Of a stretch of DNA of 40,876 nt, positions 29,057-34,885 are shown one piece after another. The notes beneath the pieces are model-generated. The model worked only from the letters and a program-made list of their open reading frames with translations. It searched no databases and had not been told where the DNA came from. The position numbers and the translations under genes are program-made. This stretch comes from a virus: positions 1-40,876 of IMG/VR virus record IMGVR_UViG_3300030110_002312; one strand, written 5' to 3'. How positions within the stretch are numbered: the stretch's first letter is position 1; each line of letters opens with the position of its first letter.

Positions 29057-29454
29057 TCTATATCTTCGTAAAAATGATGAACCCCTATCTTCGTGATGGG
29101 GGTTTTTCCTTCTGCCCATTTAGGTTCACTAATATAATCTGCATAGTAATGAGTAGCTTTACCAACGTTACTATCGTGCAATCCATCTAAAACATTATTC
29201 GCTATATCAACAAAGTCTTTTATATCTCCGTGAGTAAGCTGTTCCATTTTTTCTTTGTTAGGATCGCCTTCATTCCAACATGAGAATTGCCATTTCTTTT
29301 TGCATACACCTTCTAAAGTATCTGCGCTAAACCACCTTTTAGAATCAAATCTATTTTTAATAACATGGGCAATAGCATATTGTCCTTCTTTTGTTTCTCC
29401 TCTTGCTTCCCCCCAAACTGTTTGGGCCATAACTAACACGTCAGACTTTTCCAT
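29053..29454 (-). CDS. SleB-type cell wall hydrolase (133 aa)
   Basis: The opening AQTVWGEARGETKEGQYAIA, HVIKNRF, followed later by KWQFSCWNEGDPNK and a C-terminal HYYADYISEPKWAEGKTPIT and HHFYED, is the pattern of the SleB/cell-wall-hydrolase-2 family, in which the Glu of WGEARGE is the likely catalytic acid. It should cleave the peptidoglycan glycan strand as the phage endolysin. No signal peptide, so it needs the holin. The terminator of the convergent operon lies within its last codons. Confidence 0.9.
   Translation of the reverse strand: MEKSDVLVMAQTVWGEARGETKEGQYAIAHVIKNRFDSKRWFSADTLEGVCKKKWQFSCWNEGDPNKEKMEQLTHGDIKDFVDIANNVLDGLHDSNVGKATHYYADYISEPKWAEGKTPITKIGVHHFYEDID
29080..29107 (+). 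terminator. Terminator of the 28.1 kb operon
   Basis: AACCCCTATC and GATGGGGGTT pair over 10 bp (one G-T) around TTCGT and are followed by TTTTT. It lies inside the end of the convergent lysin gene. Confidence 0.8.
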
Positions 29455-30145
29455 TCCATTCCCCTTTATCGTTTAAATACATTGGTTGTATTATTGGTGT
29501 TTCATCTATCAACATACCTACTGATAGAATTGGTCTTTTAATAAATAACTTTTGATATTTCATTGCTGGTGATTTAGGATTAATTAAACATCCTGTACTC
29601 ATTGCAAAATTTAAAGCAGAAGGTGAGGACCACCAACTTACATTTGCAGATGTGTGAAAATGTCCAGTGATTAATGAGCAACCTAATTCTTTAGAACTAC
29701 TTAATACATTGTTCTTAAAGTTATGTGTTAAAAATACTTTATGTTTGCTGGGGAGTGTAAGAATGTATTTGTCGTGCCAGCGCCACTTTGCTTTTATATC
29801 AAAAATTTCGTTTAGATCTTTTAGCATAGTTCTTGGAATACCAAAACGTTCTGCTTTTCTTTCAATGCGAAGATCATGGTTGCCTTTAAGTATATCCATT
29901 TCAGGAAATAACTTTTCTAGCTTCCTAATTTCTTTTGTTGCTTTACCAATTTCAAAGATAGGTGATTCTACCTCTGGATCATTTGGTCTTTCTACTTGTA
30001 CGCTTGCAAAATCTACTAGATCACCAATTTGAAAAACCTTAGTAAATTTCCATTTCTTATGTAGCTTTTCCAGAAAAGGAATAGCGGAAGGGTGTTGATT
30101 TGGCATGTGCAAATCACTAATTATTAATATACGATTTTGTTTCAT
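29441..30145 (-). CDS. Calcineurin-like metallophosphoesterase (234 aa)
   Basis: All metal-binding motifs are present in order: D-L-H near residue 11 (ILIISDLHMPN), GDLVD near 42, KGNHDLR near 95, LTHNF near 139 and TGHFHTS near 160. It hydrolyses phosphoester bonds, with nucleic acid, nucleotide or protein as possible substrates. Related genes occur beside lysis genes in marine phages. It overlaps the lysin by 14 bases. In T4 and lambda, related enzymes act as nucleases or protein phosphatases, so the role here cannot be fixed. Confidence 0.88.
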   Translation of the reverse strand: MKQNRILIISDLHMPNQHPSAIPFLEKLHKKWKFTKVFQIGDLVDFASVQVERPNDPEVESPIFEIGKATKEIRKLEKLFPEMDILKGNHDLRIERKAERFGIPRTMLKDLNEIFDIKAKWRWHDKYILTLPSKHKVFLTHNFKNNVLSSSKELGCSLITGHFHTSANVSWWSSPSALNFAMSTGCLINPKSPAMKYQKLFIKRPILSVGMLIDETPIIQPMYLNDKGEWNGKV

Positions 30146-33318: not shown

Positions 33319-33627
33319 TTATTTTTTCCATTTTTCTTTTGCTTTTAAAGTCCATCTTGTAAATGCTTCTTTACTTATGTCTTTCTTAACTAAAGTAGCA
33401 CCTTCTGGTATTTCATTATATAAAGCGACTACTTCATTATTTTTAATTTCTACAATAGCAGGACTACAAAAAGCATCTTTTGTATAATCTGTTTGTGTTT
33501 TTTTTAATGTTCTAACTTCTTTCATACATTCAGACAAAGAGGACATAGGAATATATTGTGTCATTTGATGTTCTTGGTCATTCATATTACCAAACATAAA
33601 CATTACAATTATACTAATGACTTCCAT
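33319..33627 (-). CDS. Small exported or anchored protein (102 aa)
   Basis: A hydrophobic start (EVISIIVMFMFG) is followed by a polar domain with two Cys (SSLSECMKEVRTLKKTQTDY, DAFCSPAIVEIKNNEVVALY). The start may be a signal or a short anchor. Pattern M..MT.YIPMSSLSECM...R......T resembles small periplasmic phage proteins with one disulphide. It overlaps the 131-residue gene by 14 bases. Unknown function. Confidence 0.65.
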   Translation of the reverse strand: MEVISIIVMFMFGNMNDQEHQMTQYIPMSSLSECMKEVRTLKKTQTDYTKDAFCSPAIVEIKNNEVVALYNEIPEGATLVKKDISKEAFTRWTLKAKEKWKK

Positions 33628-34009
33628 TTGTTTCTCTTAATTTGTCTTTAAGTTTTTCAACATCTTTAATTAATTTTTCAATATCTTGTTGACTTCTTTT
33701 AATATTAACTGTGTTTGACATCATAGATTCCATTTCAGATTGCATGGCTTCTAATTGTGTTGCCATAAATTCAATTAACATATCTTGTTGTGCATCAGCA
33801 GGGAGAGATCCCATTTCTCCTCTAGGCCATTTAATTCTAAATTCTGTGTTTTTTTCTAAATCGGCTTCTGCTAGGGTTGAACGAGTTTCAATAGAATTTA
33901 ACCTTTCAATAATCCCAAAGTATGCCCAGACTCCAACCGCTACTGCTCCAAGTATGCTGAGAAGATTTCTCATAGGCATACTTACCGAGGTGTTGTCTGA
34001 TAATTTCAT
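33614..34009 (-). CDS. Membrane-anchored coiled-coil protein (131 aa)
   Basis: Residues 13-32 are a membrane helix (RNLLSILGAVAVGVWAYFG). A coil follows (RLNSIETRSTLAEADLEKNT) with a conserved-looking WPRGEMGSLPADAQQDMLIE stretch, then a longer C-terminal coil (VNIKRSQQDIEKLIKDVEKL). Proteins of this layout are frequent near marine phage fibre genes and are probably anchored in the inner membrane with a periplasmic coil. Its ATG directly follows the stop of the Cys-rich peptide (TAAATG). Confidence 0.7.
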   Translation of the reverse strand: MKLSDNTSVSMPMRNLLSILGAVAVGVWAYFGIIERLNSIETRSTLAEADLEKNTEFRIKWPRGEMGSLPADAQQDMLIEFMATQLEAMQSEMESMMSNTVNIKRSQQDIEKLIKDVEKLKDKLRETNGSH

Positions 34010-34093
34010 TTATGCTCCACATGACTCGCAACCATCATCACAAGTACACTTGTCTTTATCGCAACCACAAACAGGACAATTAGGATTAACCAT
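34010..34093 (-). CDS. 27-aa Cys-rich metallothionein-like peptide
   Basis: Seven of 27 residues are Cys: MVNPNCPVCGCDKD, then KCTCDDGCESCGA. The spacing CxxCxC-x4-CxC-x3-CxxC is like that of small metal-binding peptides. The start overlaps the end of the 66-residue gene by 8 bases and the stop is followed immediately by the ATG of the 131-residue gene, so it sits exactly between two coupled genes. No signal peptide. Metal binding is inferred from the Cys pattern. Confidence 0.7.
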   Translation of the reverse strand: MVNPNCPVCGCDKDKCTCDDGCESCGA

Positions 34094-34286
34094 GTTTACT
34101 ATCCCAAGCATCTTGCATAGCTTTTAATCCATCATTACATTCTTTTTCTGTTGGTTTAGAACCACCATCTGTAATTTCTAAATTAGAATAAATTTTATTT
34201 TTACTATCTTTCCAACGAATAAAATCGCCACCTCTTAAACTAACAATATAATCTTCAATCATATTTGGTCTACCGTTTCGTTCCAT
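34086..34286 (-). CDS. Small protein after the fibre genes (66 aa)
   Basis: Start at ATG 34286, overlapping the stop of the 199-residue fibre protein (TAATG); an upstream ATG at 34322 would overlap further. The N-terminus is beta-type (MIEDYIVSLRGGDFIRWKDS) and the C-terminus helical with one Cys (TEKECNDGLKAMQDAWDS). It may be a fibre chaperone or structural accessory. Family unknown. Confidence 0.6.
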   Translation of the reverse strand: MERNGRPNMIEDYIVSLRGGDFIRWKDSKNKIYSNLEITDGGSKPTEKECNDGLKAMQDAWDSKHG

Positions 34287-34885
34287 TATTGTGCCTCCGC
34301 TAGTTTTATAAAATCCATCCAAGTGTCGTTATCTGCACTTGAGCCACCAACATACCAATCAGAACTAGATGCTACTCTAAATTTAACTTTATGTGTTGCT
34401 GTAGCTGTGCAATTAAAAATAAACATAGCTGGAGATGACATTGATTGATTTGTAGCACTATTATTTCCCGTGGAGTTTGATGCTTTATCATAAGTACCAT
34501 CATCTGTTGTAGTAAATATTTCAGCTAATCCGTAGTTGTGATCGTTTTGACTGTTAGAATAAAAATATGCTTGAAATCTTAAAAGCCAAACACCTGTTGA
34601 TGGAAAAGTAAATACGCCTGAAGATTCAGTCATTCCAGTTCCAACTTTGCTAAAGTTATTAGTATCAACTCTTTCTAAATTATTAGTTAAAAAAACTCCA
34701 CTTGATGTTGAGTTCATAGCAGATGTTTTTCTCCATGTATCTACTTCAGTTAATGCACCACCATTTACAAACCCACTTGTTAAAGCTGTGCCACCATTGG
34801 CTACTGGTAAAGCGCCTGTAACTTGTGAAGCTAAATTTATATTTCCAGTAAGACCTAGAGTCGCGTTTAATTTTGTTTGTGCCAT
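34286..34885 (-). CDS. Short tail fibre / receptor-binding protein with C1q-like fold (199 aa)
   Basis: N-terminal fibre-type segment (KLNATLGLTGNINLASQVTG, ALPVANGGTALTSG) is followed by a beta-sandwich pattern: GVFTFPSTGVWLLRFQAYFY, ATHKVKFRVASSSDWYVGGS, WMDFIKLAEA. The FPSTGVWLLRF and final I.L strands are the order seen in C1q/TNF-like trimeric heads of phage fibres. It probably binds host surface structures. One of three small proteins of this type in a row. Confidence 0.7.
   Translation of the reverse strand: MAQTKLNATLGLTGNINLASQVTGALPVANGGTALTSGFVNGGALTEVDTWRKTSAMNSTSSGVFLTNNLERVDTNNFSKVGTGMTESSGVFTFPSTGVWLLRFQAYFYSNSQNDHNYGLAEIFTTTDDGTYDKASNSTGNNSATNQSMSSPAMFIFNCTATATHKVKFRVASSSDWYVGGSSADNDTWMDFIKLAEAQ

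Follow-up and report, generated by a model that had tools for sequence, protein, structure and literature searches.

A 27-residue cysteine-rich phage microprotein with a C-terminal tail resembling that of ribonucleotide reductase (RNR) large subunits

A gene for a 27-residue protein with seven cysteines is located on the minus strand of a virus record of 40,876 bases and 32% G+C (the window, meaning the whole stretch of DNA that was analyzed). The window encodes an SU10-type portal and a large terminase. Pelagibacter phage HTVC106P and a Methylophilales phage are among the annotated phages with the nearest portal relatives, none of which exceeds about 42% identity. A calcineurin-like metallophosphoesterase gene (PF00149, phrog_221) is found at 29441-30145 on the minus strand. 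The features of the locus are as follows.

34286..34885, minus strand: fiber-region protein of 199 aa, upstream, recurrent at loci of the family described below (family A)
34086..34286, minus strand: small upstream ORF with an ATG start (a TTG start would give 34322); its stop overlaps the peptide start by 8 bases
34010..34093, minus strand: 27-aa cysteine-rich microprotein of family A, with a putative four-cysteine zinc part and a C-terminal redox-type tail, C-E-S-C-G-A-stop
34010..34030, minus strand: tail codons CESCGA plus stop, an RNR large-subunit-like CxxC at the extreme C-terminus
33614..34009, minus strand: next gene, 131 aa, phrog_20984, with an N-terminal hydrophobic segment and a coiled-coil-like rest; it starts directly after the peptide stop
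33319..33627, minus strand: 102-aa small protein, the recurrent second downstream gene

The frame 34093..34010 (minus strand) translates as MVNPNCPVCGCDKDKCTCDDGCESCGA followed by a stop. Its cysteine spacing, C-x2-C-x-C-x4-C-x-C-x3-C-x2-C, is exactly that given in a sequence-only reading of this DNA, which had also placed the peptide in a fiber cluster and described its start and stop as interlocked with the neighbors. Both descriptions hold: the peptide gene sits after tail-fiber genes, its ATG (34093-34091) precedes the upstream stop (34088-34086), and its own stop (34012-34010) abuts the ATG of the next gene (34009-34007). An ATG at 34111 would open the frame as 33 aa; relatives favor the start at 34093. 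The 27 residues show neither a signal peptide nor a membrane segment. The 58-aa inner form of the upstream ORF gave no family in Pfam or PHROG profiles, and some fosmid records label the phrog_20984 gene as a fibrinogen-like coiled coil protein.

Very small cysteine-rich proteins of mostly marine viruses form a large family without annotation, and the peptide is one of them. Family A was collected from IMG/VR contigs by a downstream-gene search and then by peptide-pattern searches, and comprises 90 distinct members, the window entry included, counted as distinct by their last 60 bases. Many members were fetched by peptide patterns, so that amino-acid identity in those positions is partly by construction and synonymous variety is not. 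The family core is CPxC...CxC...C[DE]SCGA-stop. Conservation of the cysteines, proposed earlier as a check, was found for a six-cysteine core kept in 89 of 90 members, while the seventh cysteine of the window peptide is a subgroup feature. Cysteines at -6 and -3 are present in all 90, many of them fetched by that tail. When CPACNQDPC, which leaves out the tail, was used as the query, 25 contigs yielded 26 matches. Of these matches 25 end in C[DE][ST]CGA-stop, and their tails use five Ser codons, one Thr codon, and three stop codons. By this search, the C[DE][ST]CGA-stop tail is intrinsic to family A. The sole exception among the 26 is a second family A copy in contig L092 (minus strand, about 4425), which keeps CPACNQDPCAC and then has a hydrophobic segment in place of the CDSCGA tail.

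Family A genes lie after tail-fiber-type genes and most often before a small membrane coiled-coil gene. The next start follows directly after the family A stop in 36/90 and overlaps it as TAATG in 16/90. A phrog_20984-type gene is the first downstream gene in 32/90; the copy in the window is not among the 32, an antisense frame having displaced it.

Two frames in the window have at least seven cysteines in their last 27 residues, one being a cysteine-rich chance frame on the plus strand, and 2 of 60 dinucleotide shuffles yielded such a frame. Whether the 27-aa gene is real is decided by conservation and not by composition, and the 90 distinct members are decisive. Disruption of the frame in close relatives had been named as the finding that would argue against the gene; the frame is intact in all eight close relatives compared. 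These differ from the window gene by 1–24 of 84 bases, and in each of them synonymous changes make up the majority of the altered codons. The substitution comparison suggested earlier gave pN/pS values of 0.13, 0.31, and 0.23 in three ungapped family A groups (n = 21, 20, and 20 distinct sequences) and 0.26 when 82 distinct sequences were compared over their final 12 codons. TGT and TGC are freely swapped at the cysteine codons. A spurious frame or a non-coding conserved sequence would be in keeping with the very short frame and with the lack of a tblastn match in 50,697 phage records, where the low-complexity filter may mask matches. That reading is already refuted by the codon-level conservation and retains a negligible probability, given the low pN/pS, the TGT/TGC exchange, the number of distinct members, and the recurrent synteny. 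The earlier claim of a real, coupled gene overlooked by annotation is borne out by conservation, synonymous change, and synteny, and both the gene and family A are well supported.

Profile searches with the 27-mer, which offers such profiles little to score, returned no Pfam family at E 0.1 and no PHROG at E 0.001. A tblastn search of a 44-aa form against annotated phages gave one unconvincing match. No description of such microproteins was found in the titles and abstract openings of open-licence literature.

RNR is the enzyme that supplies the building blocks of DNA. In class I RNRs a flexible C-terminal tail with consensus CXXC returns the active site to its reduced state, and thioredoxin or glutaredoxin recharges the tail (PMC9669993, PMC5704485). 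The pattern C[DE]SCGA-stop was scanned in viral contigs (85 matches, including proteins unrelated to family A) and in 84,980 species genomes (39 matches); short frames among these matches were regarded as chance occurrences and left out of the count of carriers. One viral contig (L136) encodes a full RNR large subunit ending CSLDNPEGCESCGA, and a second (L138) encodes an RNR fragment with a C[DE]SCGA-stop end. The one verified long gene among the genome matches is the Microscilla RNR (L275), with the end CSIDDPDCDSCGA; the remaining frames are short, except for a candidate 153-codon frame (L279). The only verified large proteins found with this end are these three RNR large-subunit sequences. 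In sequence, the family A tail demonstrably resembles the ends of RNR large subunits. The window peptide carries a CxxC within two residues of its C-terminus, as a redox tail does; it is not itself an RNR large subunit, having 27 aa and no PF02867 barrel domain.

Other small proteins carry the C[DE]SCGA-stop tail (L166, L169, L124/L154, L129, L155, and L192). The microproteins of L166 and L169 end CNIDNPEGCDSCGA and CNIENPEECDSCGA, to be compared with the end of the L136 RNR. Because each has only three cysteines, their tail cannot be half of a four-cysteine zinc ribbon. Both (L166:12853-12978 and L169:1634-1738; 34–41 aa) lie after an amidase gene, between a coiled-coil ORF and a lipoprotein-like ORF, and the coiled-coil ORF beside L169 has weak Rz-like matches.

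Among 385 Alphaproteobacteria and 395 Bacteroidota genomes, eight matches to the tail were found, only one of them a real RNR (Microscilla, the center of that draw). CESCGA-stop as the usual host RNR tail is not supported, being rare in these genomes. Class I RNR tails were sought in 16 alphaproteobacterial genomes picked for small size from 211 with a match. With G226/L303 left out of the count, they were readable in 15 of the 16; six end in ECLSCQ-stop and nine in ECLACQ-stop. A rhodopsin gene was present in six of eight such genomes tested, four with ECLSCQ-stop and two with ECLACQ-stop, and the size and G+C of these small genomes fit SAR11. ECLSCQ-stop is an RNR tail of rhodopsin-bearing, low-GC, SAR11-like bacteria. 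NrdJ tails with CDTCGA were also seen.

A viral scan for ECLSCQ-stop gave at least 120 stretches. Among the matches listed, 81 are microproteins of one family (family B), 4 are B-like (one a fragment), 25 belong to another family (family C), 1 is an RNR, and 9 are short frames, so that 110 of 120 are B, B-like, or C microproteins. The viral ECLACQ-stop scan gave 81 stretches, of which 71 resemble verified RNRs, 4 are microproteins of families B or C, and 6 are other frames. Families B and C are two cysteine-module microprotein families unrelated to A, in similar phages, and one of them is often in the gene slot of A. Host matching is seen for ECLSCQ-stop, against SAR11-like genomes, and not for the tail of the window peptide, because CESCGA-stop is rare in the sampled hosts: CESCGA-stop or CDSCGA-stop was found in a single host genome, that of Microscilla.

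Family B proteins are about 44 aa long, with a four-cysteine finger, a helix, and then the tail, as at L338:6368-6502, where the protein ends SDECLSCQ-stop. A family B search made without the tail gave, for the 80 closest relatives, 80 loci, of which 79 are complete and 59 are distinct in DNA. All 79 complete loci of this set end in SD[ED]CLSCQ-stop, with four Ser codons in use. Family B had no Pfam match above the cut-off and a weak NinG-like one, its tblastn search against annotated phages gave only WhiB-like and other weak matches, and the titles and abstract openings of open-licence literature yielded no description of it. A phrog_20984-type gene is first downstream in 23 of 53 family B loci, a slot common to families A and B.

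Family C has the pattern CxxC-x-CHC...CxCxxCxC, and the tails of its modules vary: ECLSCQ-stop, CESCGA-stop (L192), or CESCQ-stop (L444, uncultured phage KT997847). Family C proteins of the cultured SAR11 phages HTVC041P, Gjalp, and Eyrgjafa, and of several contigs, lack any CxxC tail. The family C frames of HTVC041P (L443:1474-1656) and KT997847 (L444:1429-1644) lie between scaffold and capsid genes and are unannotated in both public records; the homologs in Gjalp and Eyrgjafa are annotated as hypothetical.

RNR was sought in the phage records with PF02867 and was found in none of 23 family A records and none of 11 family B or C records; thioredoxin (PF00085) was found in none of the same 23. 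Of 36 records searched for glutaredoxin (PF00462), none had it; 23 were the family A records, and the other 13, among them one with just a short frame (L368), came from the ECLSCQ scan and the search for family B. Many of the records are fragments. Since the phage records tested had no RNR, an origin of the tail by separation from an RNR of the phage itself was rejected.

The microproteins share with the class I RNR large subunit a CxxC pair with one or two residues between it and the stop; C[DE]SCGA-stop is common to L136, L138, and L275, and ECLSCQ-stop and ECLACQ-stop are found on both microproteins and RNRs. They differ in having no catalytic barrel, in bearing the tail on a tiny cysteine module, and in coming from phages whose tested records lack RNR. 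Sml1, in work attributed to Zhang in 2007, is reportedly an RNR-tail competitor that acts in trans on RNR; it is eukaryotic and is likened here by mode of action, not by sequence. The UN-24 incompatibility domain is likewise an RNR tail acting in trans on RNR: excerpts of PMC3618301 describe a C-terminal domain that alone forms a non-reducible complex with yeast Rnr1p and a construct lacking the last six residues that is inactive. UN-24 is also eukaryotic, its domain is 135 aa long, and the likeness is again one of action and not of sequence (PMC3618301).

According to excerpts of PMC5704485, class II RNRs (NrdJ) have a cysteine-rich C-terminal domain which, in some enzymes (NrdJa+b), is carried on a separate gene, and their electron transfer can cross subunits. 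This domain, which combines a zinc finger with a cysteine pair for RNR re-reduction (PMC5704485), resembles family A with its putative zinc part and redox pair, and both have six cysteines. It differs in its length of 150–220 aa, in the spacing of its six cysteines, and in its last cysteine (TSGCS), which is absent from family A. Identity with family A (C-x2-C...C-x-C-x3-C-x2-C-GA-stop) was rejected by comparison with the NrdJ spacing, C-x2-C-x9-C-x2-C-x2-C-x5-C, derived from residue numbers in the same excerpts. These also describe the cysteines of the corresponding NrdJ CxxC as proposed zinc ligands and not a redox pair, and report that the isolated domain did not restore activity in trans (PMC5704485, in part). 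Bacterial metallothioneins similarly have many cysteines in few residues; family A differs from them in having no profile match and a fixed redox-type tail.

For the 27-mer we infer metal binding, redox activity, a partner, and a direction of effect as follows. The gene would encode a cytoplasmic dithiol microprotein, with a single metal ion, zinc being the likeliest, probably bound by the four cysteines of CPxC and CxC; zinc binding by four of the cysteines is plausible. The final C-x-S-C, with two residues after it, would be a redox pair constructed in the same way as the swinging C-terminal tail of a class I RNR large subunit. The microprotein would be expressed from the fiber/lysis end of the genome, be reduced by host thioredoxin or glutaredoxin, and act in trans on the host RNR cycle. 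There it would either lend electrons to the active-site disulfide of RNR or compete with the tail of the enzyme itself, for the active site or for the redoxin. This metal-stabilized form with a tail entering the host RNR/redoxin cycle is favored because RNR tails can act between chains. An RNR-type tail is well supported for the set of microprotein families, and for the window peptide the support is good but indirect. A free-standing RNR-tail-type dithiol microprotein that acts on host RNR or its redoxins is given close to an even chance. The sequence-only reading had offered a redox factor among its guesses, and this was the better part, since the CxSC at the C-terminus matches the redox tails of RNR large subunits in form; the redox activity itself is presumed. 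Counted against RNR-tail function are the rarity of exact CESCGA-stop in sampled hosts, the failure of the isolated NrdJ domain in trans, the proposed zinc-ligand role of the comparable NrdJ CxxC, the tail-less family C proteins, the L092 copy without the tail, and the low confidence of two AlphaFold models (mean pLDDT 67.3 and 65.7). Six-residue identity can be convergence, and a fiber/lysis-end position is odd for a dNTP-supply factor.

Because CESCGA-stop is rare in the hosts sampled, a plain zinc ribbon remains a serious rival, if on balance an unlikely one. The CPxC and the C-terminal C[DE]SC would bind one zinc in the manner of rubredoxin/zinc-ribbon knuckles, the middle CxC would be free or on a second metal, and the protein would be a structural adaptor or regulator whose likeness to RNR would come from two CxxC motifs having converged. 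CxxCG sequences typically form zinc knuckles, the family A profile gave weak matches to LysW and rubredoxin knuckles among PDB profiles (nearly all over the CPxCG first knuckle, best E 0.002), and the comparable NrdJ cysteines are proposed zinc ligands, as noted above. A ribbon accounts poorly for the placement of the tail, which closes the protein in every family A member counted (many were retrieved through this tail) and in 25/26 of the tail-free search, for the same tail on small proteins with too few cysteines (L166 and L169) or a separate cysteine module (L192), and for family B, which has a full four-cysteine finger ahead of its tail.

The microprotein might instead work with the downstream membrane coiled-coil protein, for example in redox tuning of lysis, the RNR-like tail serving only for thioredoxin or glutaredoxin docking. 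The adjacency of phrog_20984-type genes to families A and B and the position of the L166 and L169 microproteins after an amidase gene fit this idea. It is nevertheless improbable, as phrog_20984-type genes occur in many cultured SAR11 phages (45 records) with family A beside them in none of the four read, and other family A members precede genes unrelated to this type. A metallothionein-like metal buffer, the label of the sequence-only reading, is more improbable still. The peptide is acidic, and its seven cysteines in 27 residues are plausible zinc or copper ligands, but no metallothionein profile in Pfam or PHROG matched, only six cysteines are conserved (in 89/90), and the last CxxC retains its surrounding Ser/Thr, Gly, Ala, and stop, none of which buffering needs. 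The label is not supported, as the residues of the family tail are fixed by position and do not form a loosely arranged group of metal ligands.

Host dNTP supply limits phage yield. In a tenable but somewhat doubtful generalization, marine phages of several lineages would have independently fitted various very small zinc-finger-like proteins with the redox tail of the host RNR, at times with every residue identical (ECLSCQ), to feed, redirect, or block RNR re-reduction. The window peptide would be among the smallest such mimics, its tail type (CESCGA, ECLSCQ, or ECLACQ) suited to the host enzyme or redoxin. If true, this would be a new kind of phage-host interface, an RNR electron-delivery tail on a separate microprotein in viruses without detectable RNR; the RNR-tail microproteins would belong to lineages related to phages of SAR11, and the means by which small phages steer host RNR would become testable. 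A recurrent class of 25–55 aa proteins can escape gene callers, and even as a zinc ribbon, a family of such breadth has no match in Pfam or PHROGs.

Cysteine-rich modules with an alternative W/F- and K-rich C-terminal end were found at L074:4542-4718 and L114:1468-1626 (HTVC027P gp12) and in L443, L445, and L446; examples of these ends are FWQKIKDWLF, WWKKIISWLT, and FWKVMSSR. At L112:2385-2504 (HTVC121P gp52), the same slot ahead of a phrog_20984-type gene is taken by another, distinct small protein whose end reads KCKCKGKCKCK.
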